DNA of 35,538 nt from a virus (IMGVR_UViG_3300012022_000003:1-35538); one strand, 5' to 3'; positions 4,723 through 15,518 are shown, counted from the first letter of the stretch. Numbers and translations: made by a program. Notes: generated from the letters alone by a model not told the origin.

Positions 4723-5355
4723 ATGAATCCTGATGCCTTTGATTTGTTGTTAGTCAATCAAAAACCGGATCGCAGTCGCATTGATAAAGACCTGGTATTA
4801 AACCCGGAAGTCGCAAGACTATTCACACTCGGATATTCAGCCAGGTATATAGCAAGTGTTTTAGGAATTCCGATCACGACGCTTAATAACTACCGATATT
4901 CAGCTCCAATGAAAGTTCTGATGGAGCGTGAAGTCAGAAGAATATTAAGACATCTGCCGAGCCGTGATCTGAAAAGAGTACCTTATGACAAGTTAATCAC
5001 TTCGGCTGGAATAGTAATCAGCAAACTAAACGAGATCGAAAATGCCCAGGTCGATGAGAAACAGATCGCTAGTACGGAGCTTATCCAGAATATCTCCATT
5101 GCGATTTTCGGAGCGTCAAGCATTGCTGGAAGCGCAAGCCCTGGTGGACAAGATCGAGTCGTTAACAGCGGAGAAGCGGCAGGAATACTTAGAGAGCTTG
5201 AGCCCGCAGCAGCAGATATATTTCAAGCGGACGTTCTGGGGAGTGAAGCGGGAAGCGTGCGTGAACAGTCTGGAATTCTTCGCCAAGTACGTGAGGACGA
5301 GGGACGAACACCAGTCGGGGAAACTCTCGATCCGGGCGTTTCCGACAAGAGTTGA
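4723..5355 (+). CDS. putative terminase small subunit
   Basis: The product (up to 210 aa) has a helix-turn-helix at about residues 32-60 (ARLFTLGYSARYIASVLGIP then TTLNNYR), as in DNA-recognition domains of small terminase subunits, followed by helices that could oligomerise. It lies directly upstream of the large-subunit ATPase gene, the normal place for this role. There is no clear Shine-Dalgarno before the ATG. The last part (from about residue 107) is read in a different frame across the start of the next gene, and its Gly/Ser/Glu composition looks like a shadow; how much of this tail is made is uncertain. It would bind phage DNA and present it to the large subunit. Confidence 0.6.
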   Translation: MNPDAFDLLLVNQKPDRSRIDKDLVLNPEVARLFTLGYSARYIASVLGIPITTLNNYRYSAPMKVLMEREVRRILRHLPSRDLKRVPYDKLITSAGIVISKLNEIENAQVDEKQIASTELIQNISIAIFGASSIAGSASPGGQDRVVNSGEAAGILRELEPAAADIFQADVLGSEAGSVREQSGILRQVREDEGRTPVGETLDPGVSDKS

Positions 5356-5869
5356 GAAGCCTTATGTCTGGGCCTATCTGGATATGCTCCAAGAAGAAAA
5401 TCTGGTCGCAGTCGAGAAATCGCGCCAGCTCATGTTCACCTGGGCGACTTGTTTATATTTATATTGGCGGGCGAAGTACGTCGAGAATAGATTAATATTT
5501 ATCCAATCCAAGAAAGAAGAAGACGCGGCCAATCTTGTCTTCAACAAAGAGCCGTTCGGTGCGCGGATAGCTTTCATGGAGTATTCGCTGCCCGATGAAT
5601 TAAAGACTATCGACTGGAACCGTAATGCGTCCTACGGTCAGCTTGTATTCCCTGATACTTATTCTAAGATTTGGGGCGTCCCGGAAGGCGGAGATATCAT
5701 ACGCAGCTACGTCGCCAGTATTGTGTTCTCCGACGAGTTCGCTTTCCAGCCTGAAGCGGAAAGTGCTTATAAGGCACTTCGTCCGACGATTTCGGGCGGC
5801 GGGCAATTTATTGCGGTTTCGACGGCTCGTGCTGGTGCGTTCATGCGAAGACTCATAAGCCAGATATGA
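5042..5869 (+). CDS. terL: terminase large subunit, N-terminal ATPase part (split gene)
   Basis: The 275-aa product contains the packaging-motor ATPase core. A deviant Walker A lies at residues 122-134 (VAVEKSRQLMFTW, with the lysine before SRQ as in many phage terminases). Walker B lies at 225-232 (ASIVFSDE, catalytic Asp231/Glu232), and motif III at 256-262 (FIAVSTA). The protein then stops after MRRLISQI, exactly where a full-length subunit would continue into the nuclease domain, which is instead encoded at 6400-7398. ATG at 5042 gives the longest form; TTG at 5123, eleven bases after GGAG, is a credible alternative that still includes the whole domain. It overlaps the small-subunit frame. 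It may be a working separate motor subunit or an inactivated gene. Confidence 0.85.
   Translation: MPRSMRNRSLVRSLSRISPLRFSERQALLEAQALVDKIESLTAEKRQEYLESLSPQQQIYFKRTFWGVKREACVNSLEFFAKYVRTRDEHQSGKLSIRAFPTRVEKPYVWAYLDMLQEENLVAVEKSRQLMFTWATCLYLYWRAKYVENRLIFIQSKKEEDAANLVFNKEPFGARIAFMEYSLPDELKTIDWNRNASYGQLVFPDTYSKIWGVPEGGDIIRSYVASIVFSDEFAFQPEAESAYKALRPTISGGGQFIAVSTARAGAFMRRLISQI
5849..5869 (+). repeat. direct repeat copy 1 at the terminase break
   Basis: The 15 bases AGACTCATAAGCCAG (5849-5863), followed after one differing base by TATGA, recur at 6143-6163. This copy encodes the last residues of the truncated ATPase ORF and its stop. It marks the left edge of the inserted 92-aa gene. Confidence 0.85.
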
Positions 5870-5873
5870 CAGC

Positions 5874-6152
5874 ATGAGAAAGTCTACCCGCATCGGAAAA
5901 CAATGGCAGCGTTACCGTGAATTGATGGGAATAGATCCCGACAGCAAAGCTGCCAAACTTGATTTCTATTATGGCGCAGTTGTCGGTTTCACGACCTTTC
6001 ACCGGGTCATGGCTAACAAGAAATTAACCGTTGAGAAAAAAGCCTCAGTCCTGAATTCAATCCGCGCTGAGCTGGGAAGGCATCGTGATTGGGTGCAAAC
6101 ACTGATTAATTTGAAAGCGGAAAAAAATGAAAGGCGTTACGGAGACTCATAA
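5874..6152 (+). CDS. hypothetical basic protein inserted in the terminase locus, 92 aa
   Basis: I do not recognise this protein. It begins MRKSTRIGKQWQRYRELMG, is basic and mostly helical, with a central FYYGAVVGFTTFHRVM segment and a C-terminal charged region ending RRYGDS. There is no clear ribosome-binding site before its ATG. Its stop codon lies inside the second copy of the direct repeat, and its start is five bases after the first copy, so repeat plus gene form one unit of 294 bases. It is not a homing endonuclease by any motif I can see. It separates the two halves of the large terminase together with the following zinc-ribbon gene. Confidence 0.65.
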   Translation: MRKSTRIGKQWQRYRELMGIDPDSKAAKLDFYYGAVVGFTTFHRVMANKKLTVEKKASVLNSIRAELGRHRDWVQTLINLKAEKNERRYGDS

Positions 6153-6163
6153 GCCAGCTATGA
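6143..6163 (+). repeat. direct repeat copy 2
   Basis: AGACTCATAAGCCAG (6143-6157) plus TATGA (6159-6163) matches 20 of 21 bases of 5849-5869, offset by 294 bases. Here it holds the stop codon of the 92-aa gene and the ATG of the zinc-ribbon protein (6160). Confidence 0.85.
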
Positions 6164-6399
6164 ATTGCTTAAAGTGCGGCGAAGAACTGGACGACTTTTC
6201 ATCTACCACGGGTGGCGTGATCCCGAAAGCAGGCGATGTTTCGATCTGTCTTTACTGCTCTAATATTGCCATCTATACAGGCAATCTCATGGACATCAGA
6301 CCGGCAACATCGGAAGAATTGGCGGAGATATCAAACGATCCGAAGACTCTAAAGGCGATCGCAATTACCATGATGTTCCGGGCGATGGATCGAGGATGA
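6160..6399 (+). CDS. small zinc-ribbon protein, 79 aa
   Basis: The product starts MNCLKCGEELDD and has a second pair CLYC at about residues 33-36, giving CxxC-x(n)-CxxC, a rubredoxin-type zinc ribbon. A helical tail follows (SEELAEISNDPKTLKAIAITM). Small phage proteins of this plan are familiar, but their function is unknown. ATG at 6160 is chosen because it puts the MNC-x2-C motif at the N-terminus; a longer form from ATG at 6127, behind GGAAAA, adds eleven residues. Its TGA is directly followed by the ATG of the terminase nuclease part in the same frame. Confidence 0.7.
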   Translation: MNCLKCGEELDDFSSTTGGVIPKAGDVSICLYCSNIAIYTGNLMDIRPATSEELAEISNDPKTLKAIAITMMFRAMDRG

Positions 6400-7398
6400 A
6401 TGGAGGGCCAGTTGAAGGGAGTCACGTTTTACCGATCGAAGTCCGGGTTCGCCTGTATGCGGGCGCACTATTCAGCCGATCCCGACAAAGACCCCGCGAC
6501 TCCAGAAGGCGCGAAGTGGCTGGAGCTTGAATTAAAAGGTGTGCCTGGCGGCCTGTCTTCAAGCTCCTGGCGGCAGGAAATGGAAATCGACTGGGACGCT
6601 GCCGGTGGTGATCTGGTCTTCCCTGACTTCGAGCCCTATAGAAACAAGATCATCGTTTCTGACTTTGAACCTCCCGAGACATGGATGCTGTTCGGCAGTT
6701 ACGACTACGGCCAGCGCAATGCTTCGTGTTTTCTCGTGCATGGCCTGGACTACGACCAGAATGTCTGGACCATCTGGGAGTTTTATTCAAACGCTTTCGG
6801 ATATCTTACCCAGGCCCGCATCATGAAAGCCTGCCCTTACTGGAAACGGCTTCAATGCGTAATCGCAGACCCGCAGATATTCGCCAAAGACCAGCAGCAG
6901 ACCAGCTCGATCGGCGGCGATCAGAACGAACTAAAAAGCATTGCCGATCTGTATTCGCAGATTCCCGAAGACCGCGATGATCCTCTCAGCGGCCCGATAT
7001 ATTTCATTCCCGGGAAGCATGGCGGCGATTTGACGACCGCTGAATGGATCAAAGGAAATCTCTGGCATGACCTGGCCGAAGGCAGTCCGCGCTGGAGAAT
7101 ATTCAATACCTGCCCATTTTTAATTTGGGAAATCGGCAAGCTGCGCTACGCCGAATGGACGGCGCTGGCACAGGAGACAAAGAATCTGCGCGAAGAAGTA
7201 ATCTCGAAAGACAATCATGCCTGGGATAGTTTCAAGTATTTCCTGCTTCAGTTCATGATCGGGCCGCAGGCTCCCAAGAAAGAGAAGTACGATGATCTCA
7301 AAGAGATTGGCGACCTGGCCTCTTACAGAGAATGGAAACTTGTGGATAAACTCCACGCAGCTCGGGAAGCAACGTTTACTGATATCTGGGGGGAGTAA
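6400..7398 (+). CDS. terL: terminase large subunit, C-terminal nuclease part (split gene)
   Basis: The 332-aa product opens with the segment that follows the ATPase core in large terminases (GFACMRAHYSADP, then WRQEMEIDW at about residues 57-65), then an RNase H-fold nuclease. Candidate metal ligands are Asp102 (YDYG), Glu127 (WEFY), Asp157 (VIADPQ) and Asp271/Asp276 in KDNHAWDSFKY, the usual DDHxxDAxRY-type motif. All look intact, so DNA-cleaving activity is plausible. The start is ATG at 6400, directly after the previous TGA with GAGG four bases before it; TTG at 6412 behind GGAGGG is an alternative. Cuts concatemeric DNA during headful or site-specific packaging. Together with 5042-5869 it makes a nearly complete large terminase in two polypeptides. 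Confidence 0.85.
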   Translation: MEGQLKGVTFYRSKSGFACMRAHYSADPDKDPATPEGAKWLELELKGVPGGLSSSSWRQEMEIDWDAAGGDLVFPDFEPYRNKIIVSDFEPPETWMLFGSYDYGQRNASCFLVHGLDYDQNVWTIWEFYSNAFGYLTQARIMKACPYWKRLQCVIADPQIFAKDQQQTSSIGGDQNELKSIADLYSQIPEDRDDPLSGPIYFIPGKHGGDLTTAEWIKGNLWHDLAEGSPRWRIFNTCPFLIWEIGKLRYAEWTALAQETKNLREEVISKDNHAWDSFKYFLLQFMIGPQAPKKEKYDDLKEIGDLASYREWKLVDKLHAAREATFTDIWGE

Positions 7399-7625
7399 TG
7401 AGCGAAGACCGGCGTTGGAAAGACGAAAATCCCGAATACTGGGCAGAGAAAGCCGAAGAATTAATGGTGACCATTGCGGCGACAATTCTTAATGCGGTTG
7501 CCGGTCTGCCGGTTCCACTAGCCACCAAGCGGGCCTATGAAATCTTCGACGAGATAAGCGAAGAATCCTGGGCGCGATGTGAGCGCCGGAGCGGAAGATA
7601 CAGCGAGAAATCTAGCGGTGAGTAA
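7398..7625 (+). CDS. hypothetical protein, 75 aa
   Basis: The ATG shares its first base with the end of the nuclease gene's stop, and GGGGGGAG lies very close upstream. The product is charged at both ends with a hydrophobic helix in the middle (ELMVTIAATILNAVAGLPVP). One helix could be membrane-associated or buried in an oligomer. Its TAA overlaps the ATG of the methyltransferase gene. I do not recognise a family. Confidence 0.55.
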   Translation: MSEDRRWKDENPEYWAEKAEELMVTIAATILNAVAGLPVPLATKRAYEIFDEISEESWARCERRSGRYSEKSSGE

Positions 7626-8182
7626 TGCATGAGTCTGTTTTGGCCTTTATACAGGAGCATATCGAATCAGAAGAAGTCGCCGGCAAGCGTGTACTCGAAA
7701 TTGGGAGTAGAAATATCAACGGCAGCGTCCGTCCGATCATTTCAGCAATGAATCCCCTGAGCTACGAAGGCATCGACAGGAAGGCTGGATTCGGCGTCGA
7801 TATCATCGAAGATTGGGGCGGCGATGGCTGGGTGAGCAGGATCGTCAAGTATTCCGAAAAATATGATCTGGTGATTTCCACTGAAATGCTGGAACACGCC
7901 GAGGACTGGCGGTCGGCGTTGTATTGCATGAAATACGCGCTGAAGCCAGCTACCGGCATTCTGATTCTGACCACCCGGAGCCCTGGATTCAACTTGCATG
8001 ACCTGCCGGATTACTGGAGGTTTACTCTGGAGAATTTCCGTGCGATGTTCGAGGACATGGACATCGTAACGCTCCAGATGGACCCGCAAGTACCTGGAGT
8101 ATTTATCAAGGCTCGGGCCAATGAACGCACGGGTAAAGATCCGGTGAGCCTGGAAAAAATCACTGTAGCAAGTGCCATGTAG
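7625..8182 (+). CDS. SAM-dependent methyltransferase (class I, Methyltransf_11-like)
   Basis: The 185-aa product has the Rossmann methyltransferase pattern: motif I VLEIGSRN at residues 23-30, an acidic residue ending strand 2 (YEGID, 47-51), a DLVISTEMLEH motif IV/post-II region at 81-91, and a late strand LILTTRSPG at 113-121. This is the layout of small-molecule or sugar/peptide methyltransferases more than of DNA methylases, since no DPPY/NPPF or PCQ motif is present. Neighbouring glycosyltransferases make sugar or surface modification attractive. It starts with TAATG coupling to the 75-aa gene. Confidence 0.75.
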   Translation: MHESVLAFIQEHIESEEVAGKRVLEIGSRNINGSVRPIISAMNPLSYEGIDRKAGFGVDIIEDWGGDGWVSRIVKYSEKYDLVISTEMLEHAEDWRSALYCMKYALKPATGILILTTRSPGFNLHDLPDYWRFTLENFRAMFEDMDIVTLQMDPQVPGVFIKARANERTGKDPVSLEKITVASAM

Positions 8183-8554: not shown

Positions 8555-8687
8555 GCCAACTGCCGCCGAAGTCGATAAAGAAATCGTTGATTTTGAGAAT
8601 CTCGTTGAGCGAACATTCGGAATCTTTGAAGAGGACGAAGCTGAAATGAAGCGCCAGGCTGAATTAATAGAGGCCATTCAACGTTGA
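8379..8687 (+). CDS. coiled-coil protein, 102 aa
   Basis: The start is GTG at 8379, eight bases after GGAGG. The product has a long helix with heptads (VEMLQDRCEQLEETIRRLEK) and a second acidic helix at the end (FGIFEEDEAEMKRQAELIEA). It resembles small coiled-coil proteins found near head genes, but no family is named. It overlaps the preceding frame by 176 bases, and the next gene starts with TTG inside its stop. Confidence 0.65.
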   Translation: MFNLTLVTKSEKLLWRHQVEMLQDRCEQLEETIRRLEKRNDALVTALVAKQAKVILSPEPTAAEVDKEIVDFENLVERTFGIFEEDEAEMKRQAELIEAIQR

Positions 8688-9634
8688 ACGAATCATCCCC
8701 CCAGAAATCCATCTTCGTCGCTCTGCCAACTTTAGGTACATATAACTTCGGCCTGCTGAACAAACTCTCCTGGTTCGGGATGCAGACTGATTATCTCGTC
8801 TGCCTGGGTCAATGCGTAGGGACGTTGTTTCACGATACCGCCAGGAATAACCTGGCCGCGCAATTTCTGGAATCGGGCGCGGATTATTTGCTATTCATCG
8901 ACTCCGACGTTGATCCGGCAGCGAATATCCTGGACCTTGCCAAGCACGACAAAGACATCATTGCAGCCAATGTCTTCGCCTGGATGGCAGGCAAGAGTAA
9001 GAACGGCGACAGTACGGTTGAGCTATTCAGTTCGATCTGGGAGCAAGCTCCATGCGAAGAATGTAAGGCCGTCGAGCAGTTCCAGAAAGACGGTTCCAAC
9101 AAAGATCGGCGCGAGTACCGGATTGATCCGAGAGCGCCGGAGATTCTGGAACGCTACGACCCGTTCACTCATACCTGGAAACTGTTCTATGATCGGGAGG
9201 CCAGGCAATACATGAGCGGCAAATGCCGTTGCCAGGGGACAGGCCGTGATCCATTCGTCTACAATCCCAGTTCAAAAATTACGCAGAAAGAAAGCCCGAT
9301 CGAAGTCGATGCTGTCGGATGTGCAGCGACGATGATTGCGCGGCGGGTAATCGAAAAGATGCCGCCGCCCTGGTTTCAGTTCATCTATCGGCACATGCGC
9401 GATGTCATGACGACCGAAGATTTGTATTTCTGCTACAAGGCCAAGCAGCTCGGCTTTACGATCTGGGCCGATCAATACATGCCGGCGCGGCACTTCAAAG
9501 AGATCGACTTACTCCAGATGAACTCCTGGGGCGGGCGCTTGATCGACTCGACAGCCAAGATGCTCGAAGCAAAGAAAGCAGAAAAGCCGAGAATAATTAC
9601 CCCCGAGATGGCGGGGCAACTGCATTTCAGGTGA
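8684..9634 (+). CDS. GT-A fold glycosyltransferase with Cys insert
   Basis: The 316-aa product begins, after TTG at 8684 behind GAGG, with a strand IFVALPTLG and reaches FIDSDVD (residues 71-77), a metal/nucleotide-sugar DxD motif. It then has VGCAATMIARRV (211-222) and TTEDLYFCYKAKQLG (243-257), the acceptor-side acidic motif of family-2-like transferases. Between them is an insert with Cys124, Cys127, Cys181 and Cys183, possibly a zinc knuckle. It should transfer a sugar from a nucleotide donor; acceptors could be a virion protein, DNA or host glycan. There is no signal peptide, so it would act in the cytoplasm. It lies directly upstream of the portal gene. Confidence 0.75.
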   Translation: MNESSPQKSIFVALPTLGTYNFGLLNKLSWFGMQTDYLVCLGQCVGTLFHDTARNNLAAQFLESGADYLLFIDSDVDPAANILDLAKHDKDIIAANVFAWMAGKSKNGDSTVELFSSIWEQAPCEECKAVEQFQKDGSNKDRREYRIDPRAPEILERYDPFTHTWKLFYDREARQYMSGKCRCQGTGRDPFVYNPSSKITQKESPIEVDAVGCAATMIARRVIEKMPPPWFQFIYRHMRDVMTTEDLYFCYKAKQLGFTIWADQYMPARHFKEIDLLQMNSWGGRLIDSTAKMLEAKKAEKPRIITPEMAGQLHFR

Positions 9635-9641
9635 TCCCAAA

Positions 9642-11819
9642 ATGGCGACAACGATAGACGATGCCAGGGTAGATCCGAACAAGATCAATGAGCTGTACGC
9701 AAGATTATCCAGCCGGGTGCTGACCGATCGCTATATCTATGAACGCGACTGGTTCAGGAATATTTTATTTTACCTGGGCATCCAGTGGATCAACTACGTT
9801 CCGGGTGCGCGGCGCTGGTATCCCAAGACCATGAAAAAGTGGATACCCCGACCTGTGACCAACAAGTTTGCCACCCACGCCAACACCATGATCCAGGTGA
9901 TTACGGCCAAGCCGCCCCTGGCAACAGCCAGGCCCACGACCGATAACCCCGACGATATTGGAGCTGCGGAAGTAGCGACGATTGCGCTGCCGGTACTCTA
10001 TGAAGAAATGGACAGCGACACCGCACGGCGCATACTCGCCTCATGGGTTGTCCTGACTGGTAACGGCGTACTTCATGCCTGCTACGACCCGGATCTCAAA
10101 TATGGCTCGGTCACGATCCCGAATCTGCAATGCCCGAACTGCGGCAAGACCATGCCCCCGGATCAGACCCAGAATGGTGCATGTCCTGAGTGCCAGGCGC
10201 AGATGGTTGAAGCTCCAGGTCAGGATCAGTCCGGTCAGGTCATGGGACAGAAAATGCCCAAGGGCCAACTCCGCATGGAAGTCCTGAGTCCGTTTGAGAT
10301 TTATTGTGACCTGGAATCTCGATCGTTTGAAGAACTCGAAGAACTCATGGTCAGGCGGCGCTACAACGTCGATGTCATTAACGCACGCTGGCCTGGCAAC
10401 AATATTGAGCCCGATGGTGGTCATGGTGAAAACGGCTCGTCTGGGTTGAATCTGCTTCGCTCTGTGGCCTATTCCGCAGGCATCGGTGTCTATGGTTTCG
10501 GTGGGCAGACCGGAGTAGAGAACCAGTCAGCGACCGTAGATTTTGTCTGGAAGAAACCTTGCGAGGCTTACCCCGATGGGCTGGTGGCGGTCTACTGCAA
10601 TAACAAGATCCTCAACCCGGCGTCGCTTCAAATGCCCTATCGAGATCAGAAAGGGAATCCACTCTGGACCTTCCGGCACGTACCGTTCGATGTTGTGCCA
10701 GGAAGACTCTGGGCGCGTACTCCGCTCGATGATGTTGCGCCGAAGCAAGAGCAGCGTAACAAGCTCGAAAGCCTGATTCAGCTCATAGTCACGCGGACAG
10801 CGAACCCTGTCTGGCTCAGACCGAAGAATTCGGGCGTGACAGTGATTACAGGCGAACCAGGCCAGGATATCGAATACAACTCGATCGCCGGCGTCGGAAA
10901 GCCGGAGCGAATTCCGGGCGAGAATATTCCCACGAGTATTATCGCCTGGCTCGAAAAGATCGACTCCGACATGGAAGAACTGGCCGGGACGTTTGAAGTC
11001 CTCAAAGGCAATACGCCTCCTGGAGTGACCGCTGGGACTGCGCTGCGACTTCTTCTGGAACGCGCTGTCACGCGCTTTACGCCGCTACTGCAAGCCTACG
11101 AGAAAGCCTGGGGCGATGCGACCAAAGACGCGCTATGTATTTTTCAGCAGTTCGGGACCGAGCAACGCATGGCGCAGATACAGGGCCCCGGAAAGGTCTG
11201 GGAGACTAAAGCATTCTCAAATTCTGATCTGATTGGTTCGGTCGATATCATCGTCGAAGTCGGCAGCTCGATCCCGAAGACCAGTGTAGGTACGCAGGCA
11301 TTGATCCAGGATCTTGCCGGCCTGGGTGTCATAATGCCGCAGGAGCCTGAGACTCAGTACAAGATCCTGGAAGAATTCGGCATGACCAAGCTGCTCGGCT
11401 CGATCGACGATAATATCCGCCAGGCCGAGCGTGAGAACTGGAACTTTCAGGTCATGCAGATGCCGTTTGAAGTTAATCAGATCATCGACAATCACGCCGT
11501 ACATATACTTCGCCACAAGCAACTCGCGTTATCGAGTGATTACGCAAGTTGGCCTCCCGAGATGCGGGCCGCCCTCGATGCTCATATCGTTGAACACCAA
11601 ATGGCAATGGAAGGGGCACTGAATGCCAATGCTGCGATGGGAATGCCTGGGCCAGCAGCTCCGGCAGGTCCGAATGGTGAAGCGCCTGGAGTAACCCCAA
11701 GCGGTGAACCTGCTGGTGGTATTCCAAGGGGGGAAACATCAGGGAATCCGGCTTCAGGCGCTGCACCGCCCAGTTCTCAAAATGACACCAGTGAACCTCA
11801 ACCAGCAGGAGAGTATTGA
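9642..11819 (+). CDS. portal protein
   Basis: The 725-aa product has the length and features of podovirus-type portals. It has an N-terminal helical region (YIYERDWFRNILFYLGIQWI), a conserved-looking PVTNKFATHANTM segment, and the long helix region TAGTALRLLLERAVTRFTPL that precedes the crown. A zinc-ribbon insert is visible at residues 164-184 (CPNC-x13-CPEC). The C-terminal 60 residues are Pro/Gly-rich and probably disordered. Twelve copies would form the ring through which DNA enters and leaves, contacting terminase during packaging and adaptors later. It lies between terminase and scaffold genes as expected. AGGTGAT precedes the ATG. Confidence 0.85.
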   Translation: MATTIDDARVDPNKINELYARLSSRVLTDRYIYERDWFRNILFYLGIQWINYVPGARRWYPKTMKKWIPRPVTNKFATHANTMIQVITAKPPLATARPTTDNPDDIGAAEVATIALPVLYEEMDSDTARRILASWVVLTGNGVLHACYDPDLKYGSVTIPNLQCPNCGKTMPPDQTQNGACPECQAQMVEAPGQDQSGQVMGQKMPKGQLRMEVLSPFEIYCDLESRSFEELEELMVRRRYNVDVINARWPGNNIEPDGGHGENGSSGLNLLRSVAYSAGIGVYGFGGQTGVENQSATVDFVWKKPCEAYPDGLVAVYCNNKILNPASLQMPYRDQKGNPLWTFRHVPFDVVPGRLWARTPLDDVAPKQEQRNKLESLIQLIVTRTANPVWLRPKNSGVTVITGEPGQDIEYNSIAGVGKPERIPGENIPTSIIAWLEKIDSDMEELAGTFEVLKGNTPPGVTAGTALRLLLERAVTRFTPLLQAYEKAWGDATKDALCIFQQFGTEQRMAQIQGPGKVWETKAFSNSDLIGSVDIIVEVGSSIPKTSVGTQALIQDLAGLGVIMPQEPETQYKILEEFGMTKLLGSIDDNIRQAERENWNFQVMQMPFEVNQIIDNHAVHILRHKQLALSSDYASWPPEMRAALDAHIVEHQMAMEGALNANAAMGMPGPAAPAGPNGEAPGVTPSGEPAGGIPRGETSGNPASGAAPPSSQNDTSEPQPAGEY

Positions 11820-12414: not shown

Positions 12415-12604
12415 CATGCTCGATCTTGAGCTGATTAAGAAATCGCAGCGTGAGGATGCAGTTATTTTTTGTATTTGTGGCACCCAGATGGTTGCTTTCG
12501 CTGAGCAGCGTTATGATGGCTGGAAATGCCCCAATTGTGGGCGTAAAAGAACTGTCATATCCGACCATCGCAAAGAGCCTACCCGCTGGCCCGAGGAGGT
12601 ATGA
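12398..12604 (+). CDS. zinc-ribbon protein, 68 aa
   Basis: GTG at 12398 follows AGGAGG by five bases; ATG at 12416 is an internal alternative. The product has CIC at about residues 25-27 and CPNC at about 44-47 within GWKCPNCGRKRTV, a short zinc ribbon with a basic end. Such proteins often bind nucleic acid or bridge protein partners. Its TGA overlaps the start of the glycosyltransferase gene, whose own GGAGG lies within its last codons. Confidence 0.6.
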   Translation: MPARDNMLDLELIKKSQREDAVIFCICGTQMVAFAEQRYDGWKCPNCGRKRTVISDHRKEPTRWPEEV

Positions 12605-13323
12605 ATTACGGCATCCTGATTCTCAACAAATACCCCGAATTGGCGAATCTCTGTATTGACTCGATCAAAGCCCACGAAAGCACTCCTGACGTTCCAATCG
12701 TTGTAGTCTGCGATAATCATTCAGGCGAAGACATAACCCACGATGTTTTCAAGATCGGCGTCTACGGGCCGTTCGTATTCTCGCGTTCGGTGAATCTTGG
12801 GTTTAATTTCCTGCAAGAAAAAGACTGCTTCCTGATGAACGATGACGTGGCGATCGTTGAGCCCAATTCGATTCGTCAGTGTGCGGCGATTGCGTGTGCT
12901 GGGCCCAATATCGGGATACTGGCCCCGATGGTCGATGGCGGTGTGGGGAACCCCTATCAGGATGCGAACCGGATTAATCAACTCTGGCCGGAGGACAAGT
13001 ATCACCTGGATCTGCCAGGCCGGACTTCAATGTCATTGGCAGTCTGTTTCGTGGCCGTGTATCTAAAAAGAAAAATGATTCGGGAAGTCGGCCCGATGGA
13101 TGAAGATTTCACCGGCTACGGCTTCGATGACAATGATTACTGTATTCGAGCCCGGAGAAAAAACTGGCGGACGACTATTACCCGGTTAGTCTGCGTCCGA
13201 CACGGCACAGGCGGCGCAGAATACAAGCAAGGTGAGAACTGGAACGTAACTTATCAGAGCGAAAACCGACCTTCAAACATAGATATCTTCCGCAAAAAAT
13301 ACGGCGCAGTTCCTGTTTCATAG
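12601..13323 (+). CDS. family 2 glycosyltransferase (GT-A), 240 aa
   Basis: The product opens with a Rossmann-like strand (GILILNKYP), has a VVVCDNHSG strand-turn, an NLGF segment, the DxD-type motif MNDDV at residues 79-83 and GPMDEDFTGYGFDDNDYCIR (154-173), the catalytic acidic region of GT2 enzymes. It is more like rhamnosyl- or galactosyl-type GT2 than the 8684 gene and lacks its Cys insert. There is no signal peptide. GAGGAGG ends one base before the ATG, unusually close. A role in glycosylating virion or host surface molecules is inferred from the neighbouring methyltransferase and glycosyltransferase. Confidence 0.8.
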   Translation: MNYGILILNKYPELANLCIDSIKAHESTPDVPIVVVCDNHSGEDITHDVFKIGVYGPFVFSRSVNLGFNFLQEKDCFLMNDDVAIVEPNSIRQCAAIACAGPNIGILAPMVDGGVGNPYQDANRINQLWPEDKYHLDLPGRTSMSLAVCFVAVYLKRKMIREVGPMDEDFTGYGFDDNDYCIRARRKNWRTTITRLVCVRHGTGGAEYKQGENWNVTYQSENRPSNIDIFRKKYGAVPVS

Positions 13324-14213: not shown

Positions 14214-15518
14214 ATGCCACAGAATCTTGCAAACTTCGATGCGGTCCTGAAAGACGTATACGGGCCTCAGATCGAAGAACAGCTTTCCCTGGTCAACAAG
14301 CTCCAGGACCAGATTGAAGAAAACGACTCTGCCGACTGGACAGGCCGGCAGGTGACGTATCCCATCCACGTAAGCCGCAACGAAGGTGTCGGGGCATCAG
14401 CAGAAGGTGCTCGGCTCCCCGTTGCAGGCGCTCAAGGCTATGCGACCGTAAAGATCCCCGAGAAATTCAACTACGGGCGTATCGAGCTTACGGCACAGGT
14501 AATCAAATCCAGCTTGAGCAATAAAGGCGCTTTCGCCCGCGCAATGGATTCGGAACTGAAAGGCATGGTGCGCGACCTGGCAAACGACCGGGAACGCCAG
14601 ATGTTCGGTTCGGGTACCGGCGTCCTGGGTCTGATTAACGGCACCCAGAGCGTTTCGGCAACAACCAACGTGAACGTCGATTCGCCTTTCGGCATGGGAA
14701 TCACAGCCAACGGTGCGAGATTTCTTAATCCGGGCATGACGATTGCCGTTATTGCTCCGGCCTCCAACACTGTCGAAGGCACGTTTACAGTCGCTGCTGG
14801 CGGCATTTCAATCACTGGCGGAGTCGTGACTATCACAGGCACCAAGGCCACGACTTTCTCAGATAATGGCCGCATGGTGCGCTACAACCCGGATGTTCCC
14901 GATGGCACGACCAATAACTTTGGCAACGAAGTCATGGGGCTTCTGGGGCTGTTCGACGATGGCACTTACGTCAATATCCTGCACAACGTCAACCGGACAA
15001 CTTATCCGGTGTTCAAATCCGCTGTAATCAACGTCAACGGCACGATCACTTCAGATATCATCCAGAGATTGATCGACGCAACTGACGAGCTGGGCGGTGG
15101 AGACTTTGCCCGCAATGGAGTTTTCTTCTGCCATCACAGCGTTCGCCGGGAGTATCTGAAGCTCCTGGATTCGCCACGGCGCTACACCGGCGCGGATCTG
15201 AGACATCCAGACGCATCTCCGACCGATCTGAGTTTGCGGAAGGGCGGCGAAATCACCTATGCAACCCGGCCCTGGATCACGGCCAAGCATTGCCCTTACG
15301 GGACACTGTTCGGCTTCTTGAAAGGTTCGGTTACGCGGTATATCCACGTTCGAGGAGAGTGGGCCGACGAAGACGGAGCCATTCTCAGGAACGTTTCCAA
15401 CTACGACAAGTGGGAGGCGTTCTACCGCATCTTCGACAACCTGGCTACGGATCGTCCCAATGACGGCTTCCGGGCCGATAACATAACCGCCACTGTAGAC
15501 GTTCGGCACGTCTTTTAA
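14214..15518 (+). CDS. major capsid protein (HK97-fold type)
   Basis: The 434-aa product begins with an N-terminal helix (LKDVYGPQIEEQLSLVNKLQ), then YPIHVSRNEGVGASAEGARL, and a glycine-rich beta middle (TGVLGLINGTQSVSATT) compatible with an inserted surface domain. The C-terminal half contains FFCHHSVRREYLKLLDSPRR and YDKWEAFYRIFDNLATDRPN, in the style of phage coat proteins. Position after the scaffold gene and AGAGGT at good spacing before the ATG support a highly expressed structural gene. I place it in the HK97 fold from pattern and context only. Confidence 0.8.
   Translation: MPQNLANFDAVLKDVYGPQIEEQLSLVNKLQDQIEENDSADWTGRQVTYPIHVSRNEGVGASAEGARLPVAGAQGYATVKIPEKFNYGRIELTAQVIKSSLSNKGAFARAMDSELKGMVRDLANDRERQMFGSGTGVLGLINGTQSVSATTNVNVDSPFGMGITANGARFLNPGMTIAVIAPASNTVEGTFTVAAGGISITGGVVTITGTKATTFSDNGRMVRYNPDVPDGTTNNFGNEVMGLLGLFDDGTYVNILHNVNRTTYPVFKSAVINVNGTITSDIIQRLIDATDELGGGDFARNGVFFCHHSVRREYLKLLDSPRRYTGADLRHPDASPTDLSLRKGGEITYATRPWITAKHCPYGTLFGFLKGSVTRYIHVRGEWADEDGAILRNVSNYDKWEAFYRIFDNLATDRPNDGFRADNITATVDVRHVF

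Follow-up and report, generated by a model that had tools for sequence, protein, structure and literature searches.

The large terminase of the phage represented by contig IMGVR_UViG_3300012022_000003 (positions 1-35538; this whole stretch of 35,538 nucleotides is referred to below as the window) is encoded in two parts, and comparison with related loci indicates that it is very probably made as two polypeptides which associate into one working motor protomer. Two ORFs, at 5042-5869 and 6400-7398, are present with two small genes between them, as an earlier reading of the sequence alone (the sequence-only reading) had described. The first (N half) has the Walker A, Walker B and motif III elements by which the ASCE P-loop ATPase of a large terminase subunit (TerL) is recognised, and the second (C half) has the RNaseH-like nuclease with acidic metal-binding residues; the location of both activities on one polypeptide, which also defines a TerL, is not found in the window, where two ORFs encode them. 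The genes and repeats around the terminase are the following.

4723-5355, plus strand: probable terminase small subunit (TerS) gene with an HTH-like N-terminal part, upstream of TerL; weak Sigma70_r4/HTH matches
5042-5869, plus strand: terminase N half, the ATPase core, with Walker A KSRQ, Walker B FSDE and motif III STA
5846-5869, plus strand: direct repeat copy 1, which forms the 3' end of the N-half gene (RRLISQI and stop)
5874-6152, plus strand: small gene X1, 92 aa, between the repeat copies
6140-6163, plus strand: direct repeat copy 2, reading RRLISQL and stop in the N-half frame
6160-6399, plus strand: small gene X2, 79 aa, with two CxxC pairs, zinc-ribbon-like; phrog_24566, E 1.7e-6
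6400-7398, plus strand: terminase C half, with the lid region (about residues 1-85) and the RNaseH-like nuclease

The N-half ORF (275 aa) and the C-half ORF (332 aa) lie in different reading frames, separated by a gap of 530 nt that holds stops and complete genes. The ORF listed for X2 begins at 6127 and has an alternative ATG at 6160, which is probably the start (ATGAATTGC), and the ATG of the C half follows immediately after the X2 stop (GAGGATGAATGGAG). The terminase genes lie in the neighbourhood of the probable TerS gene upstream and of the portal gene, as expected for a TerL; the portal (9642-11819) and major capsid (14214-15518) genes are intact neighbours, and no second terminase was matched in the window. 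The TerS candidate is homologous to positions 881-1420 of a related locus, L001, where it occupies the same relative place. The probable TerS ORF extends, in another frame, into the ATPase-core gene; the shared stretch measures about 300 nt in the window and about 200 nt in L001 (881-1420 and 1203-2021), and the TerS tail is thus encoded within the ATPase gene. Glycosyltransferase-like genes and one methyltransferase-like gene are found among the packaging and head genes, at 8684-9634, 12601-13323 and 7625-8182.

Regarding domain identity, the N half matched phrog_2, annotated as terminase large subunit (E 2.4e-11), in a search against PHROG profiles, and the C half matched phrog_5653 (E 5e-6) among the terminase PHROGs, with further profile matches to the nuclease of the phage D6E and SPP1 terminases. 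The profile alignment of the N half to T4 gp17 covers residues 140-287 and stops at residues 285-287, which are taken here to be motif III, so that the N protein would be without the lid subdomain. The N half itself stops about 13 aa past motif III, and about 85 residues precede the nuclease core in the C protein, which are assigned as the lid. The position just past motif III given for the split by the sequence-only reading therefore stands, with the refinement that the classical ATPase domain itself is cut and the putative lid goes with the nuclease half.

All of the motifs named in that reading were located and are nearly invariant across relatives: in the N half KSRQ (K126-Q129), FSDE (D231, E232) and STA (up to A262), and in the C half YDYG (D102), WEF (E127), ADP (D157) and NHAWD (D276). 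The Walker A motif is deviant, without the usual GK[T/S] and with an invariant K-S-R in its place. Across 95 loci conservation is 100% for the Walker A K-S-R and the Walker B D-E and 99-100% for the four acidic residues of the nuclease (D102, E127, D157, D276); both halves thus keep their catalytic residues, as had been claimed, and a loss of these residues in relatives, which would have spoken against a working enzyme, was not seen.

Structure models agree with these assignments. The C half of the window, modelled with AF2 as a single chain, reached a pLDDT of 88.5, and the best PDB matches of this model in Foldseek were all terminases, with terminase nucleases at E 1e-8. A relative in which the halves are fused (L092), and which aligns with separate N and C halves, is predicted to fold as a whole terminase (AF2 pLDDT 93.2, pTM 0.81); its model can be matched to D6E TerL and to T4 gp17 along about 500 columns, and to the T4 ATPase domain along 294 columns at 3.8 A, and its pLDDT falls to about 73 at residues 211-220, the loop where the other loci are cut.

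Profiles from four loci yielded 80 IMG/VR loci each, 18 loci came from bacterial genome assemblies, and the census was redone with profiles rebuilt from 95 loci and with duplicates removed. Among 131 deduplicated loci with both halves, 103 are split (92 in the order N-C, 11 in the order C-N) and 28 are fused; the queries bias this sample, and the proportion of split loci should not be taken as a frequency. The deduplicated viral contigs account for 78 N-C split, 11 C-N split and 26 fused loci. On genome contigs 14 of 16 loci are split, all in the order N-C, and two are fused; several of these lie on contigs of 42-229 kb assigned to Betaproteobacteria, Chloroflexi, Bacillota, Verrucomicrobia (where the locus is fused) and Armatimonadetes, while the taxon labels of short genome contigs may include binning errors. 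The N and C halves co-occur in nearly all loci, and no second terminase of the split family was found in 14 long contigs.

The split is not unique to the window phage, which is uncultured, but is shared with dozens of uncultured relatives. Its closest relatives (45-54% identity) are likewise split, with other genes in the gap, and L001 (49-54% identical) is cut at the same site with three different small genes between the halves. The nearest cultured phages inspected in INPHARED have a single continuous TerL coding sequence in which the same cut is absent, apart from PVA7, the annotation of which is too fragmentary to judge. The comparison that had been proposed, for an uninterrupted gene in related phages, thus gives split genes in the nearest relatives and continuous ones in more distant relatives. 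In L027, L057 and L122 the halves lie in one frame with a single TAG between them, and these may be fused genes with a recoded stop. L020 is split and retains the fused-type linker, and its split may be a recent frameshift or a sequencing error.

That the gene is dead or the contig chimeric, and the arrangement functionless, is scarcely credible. In favour of an artefact, the window is a linear record and possibly a fragment, but the same arrangement is found in more than 100 deduplicated loci from many independent assemblies, the catalytic residues are all kept, dN/dS is low, and the portal and major capsid genes nearby are intact. In moderately diverged pairs dN/dS is about 0.03-0.13 for most usable pairs, in both halves and both gene orders, and 0.19-0.31 for L034/L061; the pairs L089/L090 and L024/L033 are too similar, and their dN/dS too noisy for use. 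Both halves are thus under purifying selection, and the number of loci and the low dN/dS bear out the view that this is not a dead gene.

The boundary between the halves recurs at a fixed place across deep lineages. The N protein of split loci terminates, for the most part, 19-28 residues (usually 21-22) past the Gly-Gly preceding motif III, and an ATG, GTG or TTG of the C half is located 20-24 residues ahead of HYxAD in 50 of 68 loci. Many split loci have Met-Lys-Gly or Met-Gln-Gly at this start site, where fused loci often have Pro-Lys-Gly or Pro-Arg-Gly, and the corresponding stretch in fused relatives is 47-75 residues long. The N-C gap ranges from about -18 to 2371 nt and is in many loci negative or a few bases long; where genes abut, start and stop codons can overlap by 4 nt or 1 nt, as is usual in translational coupling. 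Shine-Dalgarno-like motifs precede 29% of C starts vs 12% in shuffles, a modest signal.

In eleven deduplicated loci the order is reversed: the C half comes first, 1.3-2.1 kb ahead of the N half, and two conserved genes of about 200 residues each lie between them. These loci form a single clade with 100/100 support, and long contigs, such as that of L012 (39.5 kb), carry the N half in one copy. Since the C half precedes the N half, no cis-splicing, readthrough, frameshifting or bypassing can join the halves in this permuted clade, and a single polypeptide is unnecessary there.

This gene order bears directly on the possibility that the gap is a self-splicing group I or group II intron with ORFs, the exons of which are rejoined in the RNA. 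Group I introns splitting terminase genes are well documented, in Jug phages (PMC12363816) and ICP1 (PMC10448857), and among the 55 gap ORFs scanned a small number match HNH, LAGLIDADG or GIY-YIG endonucleases. An intron is nevertheless highly improbable here: Rfam searches gave no match at E<=1 in the window or L001, and in 28 further loci no intron and only one tRNA at the gathering score, which upholds the earlier statement that no intron core lies between the halves; the gaps differ in content between relatives and hold ordinary genes in tandem, a large number have a negative length or span only a few bases, the C halves have their own start codon at a fixed place, and the permuted clade cannot be cis-spliced.

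Joining of the halves by readthrough, frameshifting, bypassing or split inteins is just as improbable. Some relatives have short out-of-frame overlaps or a single TAG between the halves, but the 530-nt gap of the window contains complete genes and stop codons, numerous stops also lie in other in-frame gaps, and joining in cis is precluded by gene order in the permuted clade. Regarding split inteins, the N part of an intein is about 100 aa and the C part about 35 aa long. At about 13 residues beyond motif III, the N tails are by length too short for intein parts, as are the C heads of about 20 residues, although fractured phage genes with split inteins provide a precedent (Dassa et al. 2009, cited in PMC6892783).

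For the history of the split, a concatenated tree of 73 rows was used, from which three long-branched rows were excluded. The split and fused states require three changes on this tree: the main fused group is one clade, which includes one split row (L020), and the fused row L092 is nested among the split rows of the wider group to which the window belongs. The simplest reading would combine a single old split with a change of gene order, a re-fusion (L092) and an independent split (L020), so that the split would mostly go back to a single ancient event. The direction from fused to split is inferred not from the root of the tree but from the fact that fused terminases are the rule elsewhere.

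Regarding the genes in the gap, a 24-nt direct repeat brackets X1 in the window, with 22 of 24 positions identical between 5846-5869 and 6140-6163; its 14-nt core is present twice in the window vs 0.18 expected. The second copy keeps the frame end of the N half, and its stop overlaps the X2 ATG as ATGA, which suggests that the N half formerly abutted X2 and that X1 was inserted later. X1 has no Pfam match and no counterpart among the gap genes of the sampled relatives. A further 17-nt repeat (16/17) is shared by the N-half gene (5687-5703) and X2 (6321-6337) and could be chance or a second duplicated fragment. In L089 and L090, the halves of which are about 98% identical, an insertion of about 230 nt with a 74-codon ORF distinguishes the two loci.

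No gap gene conserved across clades was found, only clade-specific ones. Zinc-ribbon proteins were considered as a common gap partner and rejected, as at least two CxxC were present in 6 of 101 gap ORFs (background 1.7%) with no shared family. Gaps of 1-2.4 kb, or gaps with an HNH-like ORF (L120), are present in the clade of L036, L040, L042, L045 and L074 and in L120. Insertion of a homing endonuclease was rejected as a general cause, given matches on only few of the gap ORFs scanned; such an enzyme could have caused the first interruption of the gene, as a possible origin and not a maintained state.

Compared with the canonical large terminases (T4 gp17, 3cpe/3ezk/2o0h; D6E TerL, 5oe8), the window family shares motifs, domain order and fold, as judged from profile and structure comparison, whereas the canonical TerL is a single polypeptide, the window family is cut between the ATPase core and the lid, and its Walker A K-S-R-Q lacks GK[T/S]. 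A terminase with ATPase and nuclease in two adjacent genes is known already from Arthrobacter cluster AY phages (PMC11920828), for example genes 2 and 3 of BillyTP (PP978841), which are likewise separate and consecutive. The cut site is apparently different there: in BillyTP the ATPase gene, at 359 aa, exceeds the N half in length and the nuclease gene, at 198 aa, falls short of the C half, and by eye the cut apparently falls at the ATPase/nuclease hinge, after the lid, whereas that of the window lies between motif III and the lid. The BillyTP genes overlap with nothing between them, whereas two small genes separate the halves in the window, and hhalign of the window-family profiles against BillyTP, as single-sequence targets, detected no relation.

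The terL genes of Jug phages and ICP1 (PMC12363816, PMC10448857) resemble the window family in having the frame interrupted by other genes, but their parts are rejoined by RNA splicing, whereas the window family has no detected intron and its order is reversible. Other single-chain phage enzymes encoded as two cooperating polypeptides are the Aeh1 NrdA, which is fully functional as two polypeptides, and the phage 25 DNA polymerase 43A/43B (PMC2988022); these are different enzymes, split by recent homing-endonuclease insertion in single phages, whereas the window split is deep and family-wide. In the literature searched, mostly that outside subscription journals and bioRxiv, a conserved core/lid terminase split, many interrupted forms or a permuted order were undescribed. 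The earlier claim that the arrangement is not known as described thus holds for the core/lid cut and has to be qualified for a two-gene terminase as such, which had been mentioned for the AY phages.

The functional two-subunit motor first suggested from the window is supported by the recurring boundary, the conservation, the purifying selection and the permuted order, from which assembly into one motor is inferred. In the proposed mechanism, both halves, the P-loop ATPase core (N) and the lid subdomain with the nuclease (C), would be translated from the same late operon, each with its own start codon, and would associate non-covalently in trans, restoring one terminase protomer at the portal. 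The break site would be an exposed loop past motif III, between core and lid, which may have become an intergenic landing site where unrelated small genes and occasional homing endonucleases were gained and lost. In terminase motors, the core and lid are described as rotating relative to each other, and the Walker A arginine as toggling to a lid glutamate after hydrolysis (PMC7617512), a proposed signal during the power stroke. In the window the arginine, R128, belongs to the N protein and the W-x-x-E-x-E conserved in the lid region (E60, E62) to the C protein; as the cut falls between core and lid, the Walker A arginine and the lid glutamate are on separate chains, and the toggle may operate across a protein interface.

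Alternatively, the two polypeptides could work largely apart, the N protein as the motor ATPase and the C protein as a lid-bearing cutter recruited at initiation and termination only. The C gene of the permuted clade, 1.3-2.1 kb upstream with its own start, would permit separate regulation, but the lid, which the C half bears, is expected to be necessary for the ATPase cycle, and the co-occurrence of the halves in nearly all loci together with their similar dN/dS suggests an obligate pair. This alternative is therefore considered unlikely, and association of the two chains into one protomer is the preferred reading.

Packaging models assume covalent ties between core, lid and nuclease, through which the hydrolysis of ATP is coupled both to DNA movement and to the change from packaging to cutting; a fixed natural cut between core and lid implies that the covalent link can be dispensed with there. 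Searches and trees based on the terminase will overlook such phages or break them up, which matters for annotation. These terminases also offer ready-made two-part motors, of which core and nuclease could be mixed, titrated and timed in vitro. It is tentatively suggested, as a possibility somewhat short of even, that they represent a widespread and ancient motor lineage in which each protomer is an obligate heterodimer and core-lid movement takes place across a protein-protein interface. If this reading is true, the cutting half could in principle exchange or join late, which would alter the regulation of the power stroke and of the transition between packaging and cutting.
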